Shown here: positions 20,846 to 35,366 of the stretch, piece by piece
How positions within the stretch are numbered: the first letter of the stretch is position 1
Layout of the letters: every line of letters starts with the position of its first letter
Assembly (NCBI GenBank): GCA_028821405.1
Contig: JAPPGK010000020.1
Location: forward strand, 1 to 44,794
Length of the DNA: 44,794 bases
Reading direction: 5' to 3'
From: Gammaproteobacteria bacterium
GTDB lineage: Bacteria > Pseudomonadota > Gammaproteobacteria > Pseudomonadales > Azotimanducaceae
Notes under the pieces: generated by a model
What the model was told of the DNA's origin: nothing
Databases searched by the model: none
What the model saw: the letters and a program-made list of their open reading frames with translations, nothing else
Translations under genes and position numbers: made by a program

Positions 20846-20960
20846 GGGCGGACCTGAACGCCCGTGGGCGCCGGTCTCAACGCGCCCTTGGGGGGCAGTC
20901 GCCAGGACCAACGGGCTGCCGGCACGGGAGAGGAGCCTGTCCCCAACGCGCCCGTGTTCC
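20846..20960. repeat. GC-rich dispersed repeat between convergent genes
   Basis: The sequence begins TGTAGGGGCGGACC at the lipoprotein stop and contains AACGCCCGTGGGCGCCGG, CAACGCGCCC (twice) and GAGGAGCCTGTCCCC, all wording shared with the other GTAGGGG-type repeats. It separates two convergent genes and may act as a bidirectional transcription barrier; no T-rich tract is present. Confidence 0.5.
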
Positions 20961-20972
20961 GGCGACAACGCG

Positions 20973-22013
20973 TTACGCCAACCACTTCTCCGTCGGCGCG
21001 AAGTCATCGATGCCGACCTGTGCGCGCAGTTCGACGGAAGCGTTTGCGGTGCGCGTGTCCAGCCGGATGCCGATGGCATCGGCGACCCGTGTAATGCCGT
21101 TGAAGCCGGAGGCGACCAAGATCGCATCGCGTGTCGCGTCAGGGCCCATCGAATCGATGCCTTGCTGGCGTAGCACCTTCACTTCCTCCCAGCGCCAGCC
21201 GGCGACCGCCTCGGCCAAGCCAACGAGCAATGCGCCGTGGGCAACCCCGGTGTCCCCGTCCGAACGCCCCGTGACGACGCCCAGGTCAGGCTCCGTACTA
21301 CTGCGCTTGCTGTTCCCGACACTCTCCCGGAGCGCCACCGTATGGGAGGTCGTTCAGTAGAAGCACTCGTTGACCGCGGACACCCGTGCCGCCACCAGTT
21401 CGACCTGCGCCCGGTCCAGCGCGAAATGGGAATCGGGTGCCATGTAGTAGGAGCGTCCGAACGTCCCGAAAAACAGCTTGAGAGCGCTCGGCACCAGTCC
21501 GAGCGAGCGGAGGATGTTGGCGCGGCCTTGGCGAGCCAGCGGCAACCAGGCGTCGGCGTCCTCAAGGTCGTCCGAGCGCTCCAGGGTCGGCTCGCCGCCC
21601 ACGGGTTCGGGCAGGTCGGGCATGTCGAGACCGATACCCTGGGCGAAGGTGTCGACGATCACCGAACTGGCCGTGACCGCAACGAGTTCCACGTACGCCT
21701 CGGGCAGGAGCCCCAAGTCGATCACGTCGTCGAACCATCGTCGGGTAAGGCGCCCGGAGTCGTTGCGGATGGCGTGGATCGCCTCCACTGCAATGGGAGG
21801 CAGTTCGCCGTCGTCGTCGTGTTCGGCGCTGATGGGGAGCGTTGGTCCATCCCGTTCGGCGCAGAAGGCACATGTCGGTGCGGAGCGGGCAGCGCGAACG
21901 ATGGCCAGGCGATCTGCGCCGTTCCACCACGCGCCGGGTGCCGCCACGGCTTCGAGCGTCGCGTTGTGGGCGGCGGCGGTCGCCGGGTCGACGGGCAGTG
22001 CCGCTTCTGTCAC
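20973..22013 (-). CDS. Probable selenoprotein: AhpD/CMD-like peroxidase with in-frame UGA (Sec220)
   Basis: Two open frames in the same phase are separated only by TGA at 21356-21354. Reading it as Sec gives 346 residues with Cys217-Phe-Tyr-Sec220-Thr-Thr-Ser-His224, exactly the CxxCxxxH active site of the AhpD/carboxymuconolactone decarboxylase fold. Homology continues across the UGA: ELVAARVSAVNECFY before, TTSHTVALRES and FNGITRVADAIGIRLD after. The N-terminal half looks like a second, diverged copy of the fold with its own CAFC (48-51) but no following His. Such proteins reduce peroxides with a thiol/selenol pair. A SECIS-like hairpin follows the UGA at once. GTG 22013 overlaps the GST stop as GTGA. 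The alternative is a nonsense mutation of a Cys codon. Confidence 0.82.
21317..21352 (-). promoter_or_regulatory. bSECIS-like hairpin directly after the in-frame UGA
   Basis: Counting from the base after UGA on the minus strand, CGAC (2-5) pairs with GTCG (34-37), CTCCC (6-10) with GGGAG (26-30), and GG (15-16) with CC (24-25). The apical loop is UGGCGCU (17-23), with an ATAC bulge on the 5' side and AGU on the 3' side. Known bacterial SECIS elements lie immediately downstream of UGA, with a small loop about 16-37 bases away that carries a G in its first two positions; this one fits. It lies within the coding sequence. Confidence 0.65.
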
Positions 22014-22783
22014 GACGCTGCCTGTGCAGCGGCTTCCCGCGCTGCCCTGAACTTCTTGTTGGACTCGGTGGTCTGGTGGAACAGCAACTCGCGTCGGGCC
22101 TTGTCTTCCGCCTCGGTGAGTTTGCGTTGGCCGAAGTCACGCCCCACGCGACGCCCGGTTTCCACCGCGGGTCGTGAATGTATGAGGTCGATCCAGCGTT
22201 GGACGTTGGGGAACGTCTTCGCCAGGTCCTCGTCGAGCGTGCGACCGACCAGGAACGCCCAGGGGTAGCTGATGATGTCGGCGATGGTGTATTCGGGCCC
22301 GGCTAGGTACTCGTTGACGGACAACTGGGCATCCATGACCGCGGCCAGCCGGTCGACCTCGCCGACGAAGCGTTTGACGCCGTATTCCAGTTGCTTGGGG
22401 TCGTCGGCCAGGTTCCTGCCGTAGTTCTTGAAGTGGTTGGCGTTGCCCATCATGGGCCCGAGATTGGCCATCTGCCAGTGAACCCACTGCAAGGTCCTGT
22501 ATCTGCCGCGCGGGTCGGCGGGCAGGAACTTGCCGGTTTTTTCGGCGAGGTACTCAAGTATCGCGCCGGACTCGAAGATCGCTAGGGGCTCGCCCCCGCC
22601 CAAGGGGTCGTGATCGACGATCGCCGGCATCCGGTTGTTCGGCGAGATGCGCAGGAACTCGGTCTTGAACTGGTCTCCTCCGCCGATGTCGACCGGAAAG
22701 ACGTTGTATTCGAGCCCGCACTCCTCGAGCATGATGGTGATTTTCCATCCGTTGGGCGTCGGCCAGAAATGGACGTCGATCAT
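22010..22783 (-). CDS. Glutathione S-transferase family protein (YghU/YfcG-like)
   Basis: 257 residues. Thioredoxin-fold N-domain: MIDVHFWPTPNGWKITIMLE, then SPNNRMPAIVDHDP (cis-Pro region) and IFESGAILEYLAEKTGKFLP (glutathione gamma-Glu contact ES). The helical C-domain includes GPEYTIADIISYPW (N-capping box). The TPNGWK motif points to the nu-class YghU/YfcG type, which has disulfide-bond reductase and peroxidase activity. ATG 22783 follows AAGGAG; an in-frame extension to 22870 has no homology. Its TGA overlaps the selenoprotein GTG as GTGA, so the two products are probably made together. Confidence 0.93.
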   Translation of the reverse strand: MIDVHFWPTPNGWKITIMLEECGLEYNVFPVDIGGGDQFKTEFLRISPNNRMPAIVDHDPLGGGEPLAIFESGAILEYLAEKTGKFLPADPRGRYRTLQWVHWQMANLGPMMGNANHFKNYGRNLADDPKQLEYGVKRFVGEVDRLAAVMDAQLSVNEYLAGPEYTIADIISYPWAFLVGRTLDEDLAKTFPNVQRWIDLIHSRPAVETGRRVGRDFGQRKLTEAEDKARRELLFHQTTESNKKFRAAREAAAQAAS

Positions 22784-22983: not shown

Positions 22984-25458
22984 TCAATCGGCGGCTCGGC
23001 TATCGTATGCCGTGTCCCGCTTGCCGTCGCCCGGCGTGGCGGGGCGGCGCGTCACGAACGGATAGCTCTGGGCAACCCCGATGATGAGCGACTGGATGCG
23101 GTAGCCCTCTTCGGCAGCCGCCGAGACGATCTTGCGCACCGCCGGTGCGTCGTAGGGCTCGAGCCCCCGACCCAGCGCGTAGGTGAGAAGTTGCTCCGTG
23201 ATCGTCGTCGCGAACCGCTCCGGCTGTCGGACCAGCGCCTGCTTCAAGTCCCGGACGCCGTGGACCATCGTGCCGTCCGGCAGTAGCGCGCTGGCGTCGA
23301 TCGGATTCCATGAGTCGTCCCGTTCCCGCCAACGGCCGATGGCATCGAAGTTCTCCAATGCGAAGCCCGCCGGATCGATGAGGTTGTGACAGCTCGCGCA
23401 CGCCGGGTGGTCGCGATGTCGCTTGAGTTGCTCGCGCAGGGTCGGTGCCTTCGTGCCCGGTTTGCCGCCTTCGAGGTCGGGTACGTCGGGCGGCGGTGGG
23501 GGAGGCGGGGTGCCGAGAAGATTGGCAAGTATCCATTTCCCGCGCAGCACCGGTGAGGTTCGGTCGGCGTGGGAGGTGATCGCAAGCAGGCTGCCGTGCC
23601 CCAGGAGTCCGCCCCGGGCGCTTTGCGCCGGCAGATCGACCCGACGCAGGTCGGCGTGCTGCACGCCGGGGATACCGTAGTGATCGGCCAAACGTTTGTT
23701 GAGGAACGAGTAACGGGCGGTGAGGAGTTCCTGAACGGGACGGTCGTTGCGCAGAATGTGGTCGAAGAATCGTTCCGTTTCGGCTTGGAAGGCGTCGCGC
23801 AGCGACTCGTCATAGTGGAAACTCAGCGGCGCCGTGGGTCGATAGAACGCGAGGCTGCGCAGGTCCAGCCATTGGCTCGCGAAACTCGTCGTGAGTGCCC
23901 ACGCCTTGGGGTCCGCTAGCATGCGACGAACCTGGGCCTCGATTTGCTGCGCCGATTGCAGGCGTCCCTGTTCGGCCGCCGCGAGCAGTGCCTCGTCGGG
24001 AATGCTGCTCCACAGGTAGAACGACAACCTCGAAGCCAACTCGATGGCGTTGACCGGCCGTGGGCTTGCATCGGCGTATTGGTCGTCGGTTTCCATCCTG
24101 AACAGGAAGTGGGGGCTGACGAGGAGCCGGCGGACGGCGTAGCCGATGCCGTCGTCGAAGTCGCCGCCGCGATCCCGCGCCTCCTGGTAGGACGCCATCA
24201 GCGAGTGCAATTCGTCCCCGGCGTCGGTGCCGCGAAAGGCATGCCGGGCGAGTCGGGCAAGAATGGTCCGGGCGCACGCGGACTCCTCGGCGGCGGTCTG
24301 CGGGCGACACACGAAAAGCGACCGACGACTGGGCGTCTGGCCTGGGCCCCCCGCCTCGAAGGGTCCTTCCACGGTGATCGATTTCAGCCGCGGCACGGAA
24401 CCGCTGGCACCGGCGATTTCCCCTTCCCCGCGTTCGTTGACAAGAGGTTCCAAGAGGCCATCGACAAGGTTCAACGGCGCCTTGTAGAACCGCGCGGCCA
24501 CATCGCGTGCGCCGGCGTCGACCGGGGCTCTCACCCGCAACTTGGGCGGTTCGCGGATCTCCCGGTCGGGTTTGGCAACGGTGAAGGTTCCGATCTGGCG
24601 GCTGTCGACAGCGAGCTCGAGCCGCCGGTCCACGAGCACGGGCGTCGTTCGCCGGGCGCCGGGTCTGTTGACGGGTTCGAGGGACACGGTGAACTCGTAG
24701 ATTCCAGCGCGCGGGAAGTAGTGCCGGATCTGGGTGCCCCCCTCGGTGCCTGGAGCCGGGTCGCCTGATCGGACCCGGCGCTCCGCCTCGGTGCCGATCT
24801 GGTAGGTTCGACTGTCGAACGCCGCCGCGCTGCCCACGACCAAGCGGCTCACCGCCTTGGCGGCCGCGAGGTAGCGTTCCATCAGGAGCGGCGAGACGCG
24901 CAGGGTGCCGGCCATATTGTCGAAGCCGTGGCTCGAGTCGTCGGCGGGCAGGTAGTGGGCCGCGTCGATGTCGACATGGAGGAGATCGCGGACCGCGTTT
25001 TGGTACTCGTTGCGATTCAGACGCCGGAACACGGGCGACGGACCGGGGTCCGGGTCCGCGTCGGCTGCGCTGTCCAACTCCGTCGAGAGCCAGCGTCGAA
25101 AGCTGTCGGCGATGGGGGCTTCCGGTTGTTTCGCGTCCAGCGGCGGCATCAGCCCCGCGCGAAGCTTCACGACGACCTTCTCCCAGGTCTCGCGATGGCT
25201 GGCGACTTCCCCGAGGTCGAGATCGGCGAAAGTCGAATCCCCGTGTTCGGTGTGGCAGCGCTGGCACCGGACGTGCTGGGTCCGCTCGGTGTGACAGCTC
25301 GCGCAGTAGGTGCGGACGAAGGCCGCGGCGTTGGCAACCGGCTTGGGCGCCTCCGCCGACGGCGTGGCGAACGCGAAGTTGCCGGTCGCGGTCGCCCCGG
25401 CAAGACCGACGCAAATCGCCAACAAGCTTCGACCCCTCGTCGACAAGGTGCAGGCCAT
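22984..25458 (-). CDS. DUF1587/1592/1588/1585 c-heme protein (planctomycete-type)
   Basis: 824 residues, exported (signal-like [20 protein letters not shown]). Heme c motifs are CASCH (52-56) and CQRCH (65-69) near the N-terminus and CASCH again in [20 protein letters not shown] (DUF1588). Other family blocks are [16 protein letters not shown] (DUF1587), [20 protein letters not shown] (DUF1595), [17 protein letters not shown] (DUF1592), and [17 protein letters not shown] (DUF1585). These proteins are abundant in Planctomycetes and some marine Proteobacteria and are thought to be periplasmic redox proteins of polymer breakdown. The usual DUF1552 partner is absent here. ATG 25458 follows GAGGGAA. 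Divergent from leuC. Confidence 0.93.
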
Positions 25459-25574
25459 TCGTCCATTCCCTCGACCCTCGATACTGCGCAAACGGGGGAA
25501 CCGTTGCAACGCGTCAGCGCTCTACACACCGGCGATACGACGCCGCCGCCGAGGCTGTGGGGAATGACCCGTTG

Positions 25575-28873: not shown

Positions 28874-29794
28874 ATGCTGAATGCTTCGCCACCGAACGAG
28901 AGACACCTGTGGTACTTTCGGACGATGCGCAACCGACCGCTGCCCGTGCAGTCGCGGGTCGACACTAAGAAGGGAGATTCCGGCGCCGCCCGGACACAAC
29001 CCCCTGTGTCGCTTGCCCGTGTGCATGCGCGGGCGCTCTACCGGCCGGTGCCGCCGGTCGGTTTTGACGACCACGGCTATCCCTGCGAGGACAACAAGCC
29101 GGTGGAGAGCACTGTCCACGATGAGCTGTGCGCTTACGCGAAGACGGCGTTGCGGGTGCGCTATGCGGCACGACGGGAAGTGCTCGTGGCGTCGAACCTG
29201 GGCGTGTTCTTCGAGCGCGGCAACCGGTCGGCGCTGCTGGTGCCGGACGTGTTCGTGTCGTTCGCTGCGGGACGCGGGTACCGATCGTGCTACAAGGCCT
29301 GGGAGGAAGGCGGCGTTCCGGACTTCGTGCTGGAGCTGCTGTCGGCGAATACGTGGCGGCGCGACGTTGAGGTGAAGCCCCCGCTCTACGAGGCGCTCGG
29401 CGTGCGCGAGTTTTGGATCTTCGACCCCTTAGGCAGGCTGTCGGACCCGATGATCGGCCGGCGTCTCGACGCGTCGGGGACGTACCGGCCCGTGCCGGCG
29501 GTGCGCGGCGGCGGCTGGAGGAGCGACGTGCTCGGTTTGGACCTGATCCTCCACCCCGGCGGCTTCCGATTCCGCGATCCCGCGACTGGTGAGACCCTGC
29601 CGGATGCAGTGGAAGCGGCGGCGCAGCGCGACGAAGCGGCGGCGCAGCGCGACGAAGCGGCGGCGCAGCGCGACGAAGTGGCGGCGCAGCGCGACGAAGC
29701 GGCGGCCCAGCGCGACAACGAGGCAGCGGCCCGCCACGCGGCGGAAGCGCGCGTCGCGGAACTGGAAGCGCTGCTGCGCCAATCCCGGCAGTAG
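28874..29794 (+). CDS. Uma2-family (DUF820) putative PD-(D/E)xK nuclease with coiled-coil tail
   Basis: 306 residues, or 289 if ATG 28925 is the start. The Uma2 core runs about 55-235: STVHDELCAYAKTALRV, LLVPDVFVSF (motif Asp), DFVLELLSANTWRRDVEVKP then LYEALGVREFWIFDPLG (E-x-K-type site). The C-terminus carries five identical-length heptads EAAAQRD (one with Val), then AARHAAEARVAELEALLRQS, predicting a coiled coil. Uma2 genes are very abundant in cyanobacteria and symbionts, function mostly unknown. It is inserted between leuB and asd, five bases before asd, so it is probably expressed with them. Confidence 0.85.
   Translation: MLNASPPNERHLWYFRTMRNRPLPVQSRVDTKKGDSGAARTQPPVSLARVHARALYRPVPPVGFDDHGYPCEDNKPVESTVHDELCAYAKTALRVRYAARREVLVASNLGVFFERGNRSALLVPDVFVSFAAGRGYRSCYKAWEEGGVPDFVLELLSANTWRRDVEVKPPLYEALGVREFWIFDPLGRLSDPMIGRRLDASGTYRPVPAVRGGGWRSDVLGLDLILHPGGFRFRDPATGETLPDAVEAAAQRDEAAAQRDEAAAQRDEVAAQRDEAAAQRDNEAAARHAAEARVAELEALLRQSRQ
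29612..29716 (+). repeat. Five 21-bp tandem repeats inside the Uma2 gene
   Basis: The unit GAAGCGGCGGCGCAGCGCGA plus C is repeated five times in frame, nearly without change (one GTG for GCG, one GCC for GCG). Each encodes the heptad EAAAQRD. The near-identity at DNA level suggests recent expansion by slippage and possible length variation between strains. Confidence 0.9.
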
Positions 29795-31620: not shown

Positions 31621-34600
31621 TCAGTCGTCGGTGTCGCGAACCCACCGCACGGCGTCGGCAACGACCGTGCGCCCGTCGGTCCGGTTGGTCACGACCAGGC
31701 TGACGTCGCCGGCATCCAGATCGAATCGACCGAGTGTCGTCCAACCCGGTTCCGCAGCCGAGGCGTCGAACTCCACGGCGTGAACCGATCCGCCGCTCGA
31801 AATCCTCATGTCGTAGTTGCCTAGTTGCGGGCCCCGGTTGCCGGGGGACGTGAACTCAAGGTTGGCCGTAAGCTGAAACAGGGACGGCGGTCGCGTCGTG
31901 TAGCCAACGTTGAGATCGGGCAGGAAGTAGTCGACGCGCCAACGCCCGGCCTCGGGGAGCACTGCGGAGAACGTCGCCTCGCGGTCGCCTTCGCCCGGTG
32001 TCACCCGGGCGATGGTGTGGCGGTACCGGCCCCAACTCGTGGGTTGCTCCTGGCGCGACCAGTGCGCCTCGAGGACGGGGTCGACGTGCTGGTAGACGGG
32101 CAGACCCTCGTCGGTGTCGTACCCGTGACCGGACGCTGACGAATCCCCGCGCGGCGGCACGGTGGCGGCGAATCCGGGATCGAGATCGTCGACCACGATG
32201 CCGCGGCCGCGTACAGGGCGCCAGTCGCTCGGAAGCGCTCCCGCAAGCGGCGCTGCGTCCGAGATCGTGTTCGCATCCGTCTCGGGAACCCGCAACGGGA
32301 ACTCGTGGCGATTCAGGGCTAGGTAGGGGGCCACCCAGAGCTCGTGAACGGGCGCTTGCGTCACTAGGCCGGTTTCCATCGCTGCGTGTCCGGGTACGCG
32401 GATCGGGTCGCTCTGGTGGACGGTCGAATCGTCCCCCGACCGGTATCGCAACCGAAAGAGACCAGGCACATCCTCGCCGTTGAAGACGTCGACGCGAAGT
32501 TGATAACGCGGTGTGCCCTCGTCACTGTCCGCAAGCCGTTCGGTCCTGACGGCGGACGCCATGAAACCGGGCAGCGAGGCGTCGTGCAGCCAGTCTCCTA
32601 GGAGGCCGGGCAAGTCGACCCCGGCTTCCTCGGCCACGCGCTCAAAGTCACGGGCGGTGAAGGATGCGCCGCGATACTGCTTGCGCAATTCGGCGAGAAG
32701 CCGGGCGACGGTTTCGCGGCCGAGGCCATCGAACAGGATGCGGGCCACCGCGTCGACCTTCATCGTCAGGATGTTGATCGCTTGGGTGGGTTCGAGGCCA
32801 TCTAGATCATTGAGCGGGGTTCCCAAGGCCCGTTCCCAGACCATCGGCGGTCGAACCGGCGCGAAGACGTCCCCCGAAACGCTGCCCGAGCCACCGGTGA
32901 CGAAGCTGGTGATCGAACCCGTCAGCAGGGATCGAACCGACGGACTCGACGCAAAGATGTGCGCGGAGAAGTACCCGTCGGCGTCCTCGAGCAGGCGGCT
33001 TGCCAACGCCTGGCACAGGTATTCGATGGCGACTGCGGCACTTCCTCGGGCGCCGGTCTGGTGCAGGAACAGATTGCGTGCAAGTCCCGCGAACGGGTCG
33101 GCCCCGTGGCGGTCTTCCCGGAAGAAGCTCTTGAGGAGTTCCAGCTTTTCCGTGGTGGGAGGCGCGTCAGTCGAAAGCCTGGTCGCGCCGAAGTAGGCCG
33201 TGGGGAATCCGCGTTCGCGGAGCAGCAGCATGCCTGGCAACGCCAGGGTACTCTCCATCCGCCAGCCGCCGCCGTAGCCGCGCAGCCGCGCGGGCACCTC
33301 GACCATGCGCAAGGCGTCGTAGGGGTAGGGGAGGCCAAGAGCATCCGCATCCCGGAAGACGCCCGCCAAGGCTTCGCTGATATTCTCTGCCGACTCCTCG
33401 AAGTAGCGGATCGGCGCGGTATGGCGCCCGCTGAGCAGCAGTTCCAATTCGATGCCGTCGATCGTCGTCGCGAACCGTTCGAAGTTGGCGGCCAGCAGGG
33501 CGATCCGCGTCACGGGTGACCTGGGCGTGAAGCGGTACCGACCTCCGCCGAGGGATTCGCGACGGCCGGGACCCGCAACCAGCCAGTCTTCCGGTACCTG
33601 CACCACCAGATCGACGGTGGCGAAGTCGCGCGTCGCTGACACGTTGGTTGCCGTGCCGGGTAGCCAATGCACCCCGGGCATCAACGCGACGTAGCCGCGT
33701 TCGAAGAGTGAGGCCTCGGTGCCGAGGCTTTTGAGGGGATTCGCGCCGGCGATCGTGCGGTAGTCGATGGCGCTGTCGAGGTAGGCGAACTCTGGATCGG
33801 GAATCCCGTCCGCGCGCACCGTCACGGTTGCTTGGTCGTGTGAATCTCGGGGCAGGTCGGTGCGCAACAGTCCGTCGCGATGCTCGAATGCCACCGGCAT
33901 GCCGTCGATCAGGACTTCCCGGGTCGCCATGCCGGGATTGAACCGAAACCACAGGGCTGGCACGGCATCGTCTGCCAAGGCAACGGTCAGCGAAACATCG
34001 ATGTTCAATGCGCGCCCGGGGTCGATTTCGACTTGGCCAGCGACCGAAGTGATGTCGGGCGCCCCGCCAACTACCGACTGGTGCACGGTTCGCCAATGCG
34101 CGCGCGCGTCCAGCTCGGCGTGCGCTTGGTCGACGACCGCGGCGATGCCGGCTGCACCGCCGGCAAGGAGCACCGCTGCGGCAACCAGTTGCGCAACGCG
34201 CGATCCCGTGTCGGGCCGCGGCAGACAGAGCGCGGCGGTGACGAGTGCGCCAGCCGCTATCGCGACAACCGCAAGGCGTTGCACGAACGTCGCGACGTCG
34301 GGCACTGCGGCGACAAGGTCCGAGGCCAGCCGGTCGGGGGCGAACGCGACGTACTCGACTAGCCAGTGGGGTGCTCGGGACAAGCTCCAGAGCGCGAGGG
34401 TGACGAGGGAGAACGCCGCAACGGCGACGGCGAGTCGGTTGCCGAGCACCGCAGCCAGGAGAAATACGATTGCGACCCACAGGACGAGCGTGGGCAAGGC
34501 GTCAACCAGGAGGAAAACCCCGACCGAGGCCGGTTCGAATATCGCCCTGATGGGCCAGTCGAACGCGTGGCCAAGCGCACCGACGCCTTGGCTGATGACG

Positions 34601-34980
34601 AGGAAGGCGACAACAGGTACGGCAAGCGTTGTGACGACGCCGGCCAGCCGACCGGCGAGCAACCCGAGGTTGGACACCGGTCGGGTGTGGAACGCATCGG
34701 CGATGCGTTCGCGTTGCTCGCGGATGCCGATATCGAAACCCAGGAACACGGCAGCCGCCATGAGAAACCAGAGCAGGTAGCCGCCGAACGAGTCCACAAG
34801 GAACCGGGGAGACGTGACCACAGACGGCATGATGTTGGACATCGTCGCGTGCAGGGTGGTGAAGTAGAGGTACCCGATGCAGGCTGTGACCACGGCGAGT
34901 ATTCCGAACACCCATGTCCGGGCTAGGCGCCGTGCCGTACGCACCTCGGCGAGGAAGACGGCCGCGAACGTCTTCGTCAT
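31621..34980 (-). CDS. ABC-2 type permease fused to degenerate M1-peptidase-like domain and golvesin-like tail
   Basis: 1,119 residues. About seven membrane segments lie in residues 20-285, with FDIGIREQRERIADAFHTRP and SNLGLLAGRLAGV typical of ABC-2 permeases. Residues ~290-850 resemble the M1 aminopeptidase half of ABC-2/M1 fusions (YPYDALRMVEVPARLRGYGG, WRMESTLALPG). However, no HExxH occurs anywhere; the matching place reads LFLHQTGARGSAAVAIEYLC, so zinc catalysis is probably lost. The last ~130 residues (EAGRWRVDYFLPD, PGWTTLGRFDLDAG, VVADAVRWVRDTDD) look like a golvesin-type beta-sandwich. ATG 34980 overlaps the SHOCT-like gene as ATGA. No ATPase gene is adjacent. Likely inner membrane with a large periplasmic part. 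Confidence 0.82.
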   Translation of the reverse strand: MTKTFAAVFLAEVRTARRLARTWVFGILAVVTACIGYLYFTTLHATMSNIMPSVVTSPRFLVDSFGGYLLWFLMAAAVFLGFDIGIREQRERIADAFHTRPVSNLGLLAGRLAGVVTTLAVPVVAFLVISQGVGALGHAFDWPIRAIFEPASVGVFLLVDALPTLVLWVAIVFLLAAVLGNRLAVAVAAFSLVTLALWSLSRAPHWLVEYVAFAPDRLASDLVAAVPDVATFVQRLAVVAIAAGALVTAALCLPRPDTGSRVAQLVAAAVLLAGGAAGIAAVVDQAHAELDARAHWRTVHQSVVGGAPDITSVAGQVEIDPGRALNIDVSLTVALADDAVPALWFRFNPGMATREVLIDGMPVAFEHRDGLLRTDLPRDSHDQATVTVRADGIPDPEFAYLDSAIDYRTIAGANPLKSLGTEASLFERGYVALMPGVHWLPGTATNVSATRDFATVDLVVQVPEDWLVAGPGRRESLGGGRYRFTPRSPVTRIALLAANFERFATTIDGIELELLLSGRHTAPIRYFEESAENISEALAGVFRDADALGLPYPYDALRMVEVPARLRGYGGGWRMESTLALPGMLLLRERGFPTAYFGATRLSTDAPPTTEKLELLKSFFREDRHGADPFAGLARNLFLHQTGARGSAAVAIEYLCQALASRLLEDADGYFSAHIFASSPSVRSLLTGSITSFVTGGSGSVSGDVFAPVRPPMVWERALGTPLNDLDGLEPTQAINILTMKVDAVARILFDGLGRETVARLLAELRKQYRGASFTARDFERVAEEAGVDLPGLLGDWLHDASLPGFMASAVRTERLADSDEGTPRYQLRVDVFNGEDVPGLFRLRYRSGDDSTVHQSDPIRVPGHAAMETGLVTQAPVHELWVAPYLALNRHEFPLRVPETDANTISDAAPLAGALPSDWRPVRGRGIVVDDLDPGFAATVPPRGDSSASGHGYDTDEGLPVYQHVDPVLEAHWSRQEQPTSWGRYRHTIARVTPGEGDREATFSAVLPEAGRWRVDYFLPDLNVGYTTRPPSLFQLTANLEFTSPGNRGPQLGNYDMRISSGGSVHAVEFDASAAEPGWTTLGRFDLDAGDVSLVVTNRTDGRTVVADAVRWVRDTDD

Positions 34981-35366
34981 TCGCAATACACCTGGATTTG
35001 CTCGCCCTTGTCGCCCTCGACGTTCACCTTGAGTTCGCCCAAGGCTTCCACCAGCTCGTCGGCGGCCATGCCCGCGAACTGGCCGAGGTCGATGCCATGC
35101 CCCTTGAGATCCTCCGCCGTGTCGCTGGGAAGCATCGCTTCGAGCTTGATGCCGGTCCTGATGAGCGCCAACGGAATGCGCGCATCGAACTGCGCACCGT
35201 CGGCGTGACCCCGAACACGGAGGTATCGCGGCGATGTGGGCATGAGTTCAGTTCGTTCGGCAACGGTGTGTGCGTCGGCCAGCTTGTCGAGCAAACGTTC
35301 GGCGGCATGGGCATCGATCCTTCCCTCGGCCAGCATGTCGAGAATCTTGCGGCGCTCTTCGTTCAT
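34977..35366 (-). CDS. SHOCT-like / DUF2089-associated small protein
   Basis: 129 residues. The N-terminus MNEERRKILDMLAEGRIDAH and AERLLDKLA is the short helical motif (SHOCT-like, Lx-x-GRI-A-x-x-A-x-x-LL) seen in proteins next to DUF2089 regulators. The rest includes YLRVRGHADGAQFDARIPLA and LGQFAGMAADELVEALG, ending in a charged beta-like segment. Function unknown; in related clusters such proteins are membrane-stress or assembly accessories. ATG 35366 follows GGAGG. Translationally coupled to the giant permease downstream. Confidence 0.78.
   Translation of the reverse strand: MNEERRKILDMLAEGRIDAHAAERLLDKLADAHTVAERTELMPTSPRYLRVRGHADGAQFDARIPLALIRTGIKLEAMLPSDTAEDLKGHGIDLGQFAGMAADELVEALGELKVNVEGDKGEQIQVYCE

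Follow-up and report, generated by a model that had tools for sequence, protein, structure and literature searches.

A catalogued AhpD-related CxxU selenoprotein family: a gammaproteobacterial member, its SECIS-type hairpin and a branch linked to a glutathione S-transferase

The window (the whole stretch of 44,794 nucleotides that was analysed) contains on its minus strand a reading frame of 346 codons interrupted by a single TGA. A sequence-only reading of this DNA had proposed that the frame encodes an undeclared selenoprotein of AhpD/CMD type, coupled to a glutathione S-transferase (GST). The locus thus raises the question of whether the TGA ends a protein or specifies selenocysteine (Sec), and of what such an enzyme would do next to a GST. 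The features on which the first part of the answer depends are the following:

20973..22013, minus strand: selenoprotein gene of the NF041238 family (AhpD_rel_CFYUT), 346 codons with Sec at codon 220; GTG at 22013 is the presumed start
21354..21356, minus strand: in-frame TGA, almost certainly read as selenocysteine (Sec220); TGA in 104 of the 104 family loci read
21342..21365, minus strand: active-site motif CxxUxxxH, C217 to H224 (CFYUTTSH); all 84 rows share C217, Y219 and H224, of which C217 and H224 belonged to the search motif, one that no locus failed
21861..21872, minus strand: N-terminal CxxC (C48, C51), nearly invariant (81 of 84 rows)

The interrupted frame and its family

When TGA was translated as Sec, positions 20973-22013 gave 346 residues up to the final stop, the only TGA inside the frame being codon 220 (21356-21354), in the context VNECFYUTTSHTVALRE, as the sequence-only reading had it. 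Translation table 11 yields exactly the two products announced by that reading, an ORF of 219 residues (21354-22013) and another of 121 residues (20973-21338), and a standard-code gene caller would be expected to split this gene.

The read-through protein matched the NCBIfam profile NF041238, "alkylhydroperoxidase-related (seleno)protein", with 355.3 bits for a curated cut-off of 175 (E = 4e-106). The alignment covers residues 10-339 of the protein and positions 3-356 of the 357 of the profile, and the protein carries the CFYUT motif of the family with UGA at the U; the gene is therefore a member of NF041238. Since this alignment crosses the TGA, the family likeness claimed for the sequence past the stop was borne out. 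The Pfam CMD domain also spanned the TGA (residues 198-230, 31.5 bits for a cut-off of 23), whereas the N-terminal piece alone fell below threshold (19.5 bits) and the C-terminal piece alone gave no Pfam match at E 1. The nearest solved relatives by sequence were AhpD-like proteins that are 191-197 residues long and have Cys at the active site (best E 7.4e-06), the alignments being mostly confined to the surroundings of this site, with 6k40 covering residues 192-316. These peroxidase-related proteins (TIGR01926; PDB 2oyo, 6k40 and 2pfx) share the CxxC...H core with the C-terminal half of the window protein, but the latter has an additional N-terminal region of about 160 residues and scored 33.2 bits against TIGR01926, below the cut-off of 81.8. 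Classical AhpD of the Mycobacterium type has a CxxCxxxH proton-relay site. The window protein resembles it in this site but is no member of TIGR00777 by score (16.4 bits for a cut-off of 191.95).

The sequence-only reading was mistaken in finding no described counterpart. In the accessible part of a 2026 review (PMC13188914), NF041238 is listed as a CxxU selenoprotein family under the name "AhpD-related protein (hypothetical protein 1, Sargasso Sea metagenome)", and is identified with the "hypothetical protein 1" reported in 2005 from the Sargasso Sea selenoproteome (PMC1088965). As far as the accessible text of that study goes, this protein was represented by four sequences in which CXXU is conserved, and no functional evidence came with it. 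Further AhpD-like CxxU families are listed in PMC2398784, and AhpD-like CxxU families together with hypothetical protein 1 in PMC9312934. A full-text literature search for NF041238 or CFYUT returned PMC13188914 alone. The window protein agrees with this family in matching the profile over nearly its whole length with twice the cut-off score, in its CFYUT motif and in its CxxU; it differs in that its branch adjoins a GST gene, of which the accessible portions of the published accounts make no mention. The selenoprotein family is already catalogued and the window gene is one more member of it.

The N-terminal region had no Pfam match. Its CxxC was absent from two genes of the GST-linked clade described below (L019 and L087), and a third row (L062) lost it to sequence trimming. 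Also conserved were H65 (81 of 84 rows), H80 (83) and D121 (83); the His65 codon lies at 21819-21821 on the minus strand and, like the CxxC, outside any Pfam domain. The protein had been called "two-halved", and if this meant a duplicated domain it found no support at the sequence level: a tandem-duplicated AhpD was rejected when a profile of residues 20-160 was compared with residues 163-345 (hhalign probability 0.1%). The N-terminal region could possibly bind a metal or act as a redox relay.

Evidence for selenocysteine at codon 220

The genome (4,771,550 bases in 122 contigs, 97.56% complete) encodes the machinery for Sec insertion. Each component passed its curated score: selA at C60:5467-6780 (517 bits; 1 of 14 control genomes passing), selB at C60:3587-5422 (383 bits; 2 of 14), the tRNA-Sec (selC) at C60:3437-3526 (71.6 bits; 5 of 14) and selD on another contig, C28 (252 bits; 2 of 14). 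The tRNA-Sec, selB and selA genes are consecutive within C60:3437-6780, and ARAGORN annotated the tRNA as tRNA-SeC with anticodon tca. All four genes that the sequence-only reading wished to see are therefore present, as expected of a bacterium with selenoproteins, among them selB, selC and selD, whose absence it regarded as fatal. More widely, a selA match at E 1e-40 was found in 115 of the 132 genomes with the gene versus 52 of the 68 others (Fisher P 0.07), a weak association, selA also serving other selenoproteins. Among the 17 gene-bearing genomes with no such match, six were listed as at least 90% complete and 11 as less than 90%; selA-negative genomes with family members include G663 and G746 (both 96% complete) and G646 (93%).

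We then compared the codon at the U position across relatives. The 104 loci read (103 fetched plus the window, collapsing to 84 distinct genes) were searched with a motif that required the C, the aromatic pair and the H but left the Sec position open; no locus failed it, and every one has TGA. Within the taxonomic family of the window, 132 of 200 genomes have an NF041238 match above cut-off, with a TGA inside each match listed, one match having a second TGA and another an additional TAG. In the order nine of 194 genomes have one, that of the window included, while 74 of the 194 gave a match of some kind, many below cut-off. In the genus, a relative was present in 15 of 16 genomes and 24 of 25 matches contained one TGA; the 25th is partial and stops before the Sec site, and its locus (L102) has TGA as well. 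The related-locus search yielded a single relative, L019. In samples of the phylum (398 genomes) and of the class (369 genomes), which are thin, NF041238 was found only in the genome of the window and no Cys form of it was seen. One genome, G729, has five family members (L065, L089, L095, L101 and L102) scattered over the tree, and its estimated contamination is 8%.

The weaker AhpD-like matches from the order search (L029-L049, 21 loci) behaved differently: 20 read CxxC, a TGC or TGT codon standing where the family has TGA, and the remaining one (L047) gave no motif. Shorter AhpD-like relatives thus use Cys where NF041238 uses Sec, and, as judged by sequence comparison, the TGA of NF041238 and the Cys codon of these relatives form a classic Sec/Cys pair. 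Homologues with Sec at position 220, one of the two kinds called for by the sequence-only reading, therefore exist, Cys occurring at the matching place in the weaker matches, and none whose alignment ends at the UGA was encountered.

Downstream of the UGA, comparison of the 84 genes brought out one further feature:

21319..21335, minus strand: SECIS-type hairpin, nucleotides 22-38 counted from the T of the UGA, with core pairs 24-36, 25-35, 26-34 and 27-33

In the window its apical loop is CGGGA (21329-21325) and pair 24-36 is G-U. With G-U allowed, the four core pairs form in 82 of the 84 genes (Watson-Crick throughout in 70) against 11.5±3.1 genes, and at most 20, over 500 redraws of synonymous codons; the core pairs were picked by eye from these same 84 sequences and related genes are not independent samples, but the contrast with the redraws is still large. 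The outer pairs 23-37 and 22-38 were found in 79 and 41 of the 84 genes. The loop has five bases and reads CGKNN (CGTNN or CGGNN) in 82 genes, the other two being AGTTT and GGTAC, and its second position is G in all 84. A hairpin just past the UGA with a small, G-containing apical loop is thus found in 82 of the 84 genes, the fold of the window sequence alone giving it no support.

Pair 27-33 connects two third-codon positions and is C-G in 75 genes, U-A in eight and U-G in one. The U-A rows fall into two separate sets of the tree, one four-row set containing L057, L059, L073 and L127 and another containing L111, L118, L125 and L126, and there were therefore at least two separate double changes. 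At pair 24-36 the association was weaker (Fisher P 0.05), with 70 G-C, 10 G-U, two A-U and two unpaired. Codon choice follows the pairing: the Leu codon in the hairpin is CTC or CTT in 84 of 84 genes, versus 36% of Leu codons elsewhere in the same genes, and the Ser codon is AGC or AGT in 83 of 83 (the 84th gene has Gly), versus 40% elsewhere. When the 3' partners were slid by one to three nucleotides either way, or by +4, no gene paired, and 18 did at -4. Among other four-pair hairpins within 60 nucleotides, the runner-up (77 of 84 genes) is this hairpin displaced outwards by one pair; outside its stem the highest count was 38.

The hairpin rests on comparison because the single-sequence fold is no more stable than shuffles: the 51 nucleotides from the UGA, folded alone, gave z = 0.23, with 115 of 200 shuffles as good. 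The mean synonymous-shuffle z over the 84 genes was lowest of 42 offsets at the UGA (-0.66 at offset 0, -0.60 at offset 3), a modest value, for which reason the test on named pairs was adopted. Rfam at a lax threshold returned no SECIS match in 20900-22100, its only two hits being far under their gathering scores. On these comparative grounds, we consider that the hairpin is a conserved, covarying SECIS-type element.

The fact that table 11 reads two pieces, and that the hairpin is not unusually stable when folded alone, would be compatible with a nonsense mutation in a decaying Cys-type AhpD pseudogene or with a sequencing error in the assembly. We give this a negligible probability, since all 84 distinct genes, which come from many genomes and separate assemblies, have TGA at this codon, the sequence past it is conserved towards the C-terminus and the pairing at synonymous sites persists there. 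It is also very improbable that the UGA terminates and that both pieces function as separate proteins, the second from GTG 21338, with which the 121-residue ORF begins: the stop would sit within the CMD active-site motif, which the NF041238 and Pfam CMD alignments cross, and by itself the C-terminal piece has no Pfam match. We are thus very confident, from the comparison of sequences, that the in-frame UGA encodes selenocysteine and that the gene is a selenoprotein gene. The CxxUxxxH site of AhpD/CMD type postulated by the sequence-only reading is backed by the family profile, the invariant TGA, the Sec machinery and the covarying hairpin taken together.

The neighbouring glutathione S-transferase gene

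Upstream of the selenoprotein gene, the window contains two further features of interest:

22010..22783, minus strand: glutathione S-transferase related to YfcG/YghU; ATG 22783 was chosen by comparison with homologues, the ORF being open from GTG 22870
22010..22013, minus strand: GTGA overlap between the GST stop (TGA) and the selenoprotein start (GTG); GTGA or ATGA in 10 of the 12 loci with GST upstream on the same strand

The GST is a separate gene that overlaps the selenoprotein gene and is not fused to it. Its relatives of solved structure include the disulfide-bond oxidoreductases YfcG (5hfk, phmmer E 8.5e-61) and YghU (3c8e, 1.5e-43), but it scored under the cut-offs of the two nearest NCBIfam models, with 212.3 bits for 332 against the YfcG equivalog NF010579 and 178.6 for 325 against NF008731. 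By these scores it is counted as a relative of YfcG/YghU. Further upstream on the minus strand (22984-25509) lies a DUF1587/1592/1588/1585/1595 protein in which CxxCH motifs were seen by reading; its relatives occupy the same place in four loci of the genus (L079-L082).

GST was detected by tblastn in 14 of the 84 loci, of which L135 was set aside as unrelated, its match (E 4e-14) lying on the opposite strand at a distance of nearly 3 kb. The 13 other genes, out of 83 tree rows, formed a single clade (support 99/88; 98% of 200 bootstrap trees), so that the coupling claimed by the sequence-only reading is real and kept in one branch. In 12 of these loci GST is upstream on the same strand, and in L106 it is about 0.9 kb away on the opposite strand. 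The in-frame overlap of four nucleotides (GTGA or ATGA) occurs in 10 of the 12, the remaining two having gaps of about 0.15 kb (L086) and 0.8 kb (L089), which suggests, as far as gene layout can tell, translational coupling. For 70 of the 83 rows no linked GST was found, a count in which some GSTs were possibly missed given that the flanks were mostly 1.5 or 2.5 kb and that seven of the 71 other loci had less than 0.9 kb upstream; the enzyme thus does not need this linkage in general. Outside the GST clade, among the first 22 gene clusters listed, no partner recurred in more than eight of the 84 loci except the gene itself and apparent shadow frames. We found no description of GST coupling for an AhpD-type selenoprotein in the literature searched, which leaves out most subscription journals, and the accessible operon section of PMC13188914 names no GST together with AhpD.

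Elsewhere in the window, a Uma2-type putative endonuclease domain (28874-29794, plus strand) directly follows leuCD/leuB-like genes, named from ORF reading and an aconitase match, and a frame of 1121 residues (31621-34986, minus strand) has a C-terminal Golvesin domain as the only one recognised.

A possible mechanism and its meaning

From sequence comparison, SelB and the tRNA-Sec would decode UGA codon 220 as Sec, directed by the short in-frame hairpin about 20 nucleotides downstream. The product would present the CxxC...H site of the AhpD/CMD fold with Sec replacing the second Cys. By analogy with the AhpD mechanism, the Sec selenolate would attack a peroxide or a disulfide, C217 would resolve the selenenic acid so formed into a selenenyl-sulfide, and the site would be tuned by His224; the product is most likely a peroxidase or a thiol oxidoreductase. 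The YfcG/YghU-like GST upstream probably shares the message through the four-nucleotide overlap. Its linkage to the selenoprotein gene suggests that it probably regenerates the oxidised site by means of glutathione or else provides a glutathionylated substrate, a glutathione-fed mechanism to which we give slightly less than an even chance. Taken as a whole, the explanation of the locus as a member of NF041238, with Sec at codon 220 directed by the hairpin, most likely acting as a peroxidase or thiol oxidoreductase and belonging to a GST-linked branch, appears highly probable.

The role of GST is less clear-cut. The selenoprotein could be chemically unrelated to it, the two genes being transcribed together for general stress while a thioredoxin or a lipoyl/AhpC-like partner reduces the Sec site. 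Classical AhpD is indeed reduced through a lipoyl protein, and the linkage is confined to one clade (13 of 83 rows); this must be weighed against the four-nucleotide overlap in 10 of 12 same-strand loci and the kinship of this GST with YfcG/YghU, named for disulfide-bond oxidoreduction, and the probability of such independence comes close to one half without reaching it. More speculatively, GST and selenoprotein may form a co-translated two-component enzyme, in which the YfcG-like transferase feeds electrons from glutathione to the Sec AhpD site and the N-terminal CxxC possibly serves as the electron route in most family members. We consider this rather unlikely; if true, the pair would constitute a seleno-peroxidase that depends on glutathione but is no relative of glutathione peroxidase, in a lineage that showed no Cys form of the enzyme.

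Under the preferred reading, the window gene encodes a Sec-containing member of NF041238. A catalogued selenoprotein family for which we found no biochemistry thereby gains a well-supported gene, with Sec in all 84 distinct genes read. What is added to the family is modest: a GST-coupled branch and a comparative SECIS model for NF041238 that includes two separate sets of compensatory synonymous changes. The linked glutathione transferase provides, from gene context, a lead to the function of the family.
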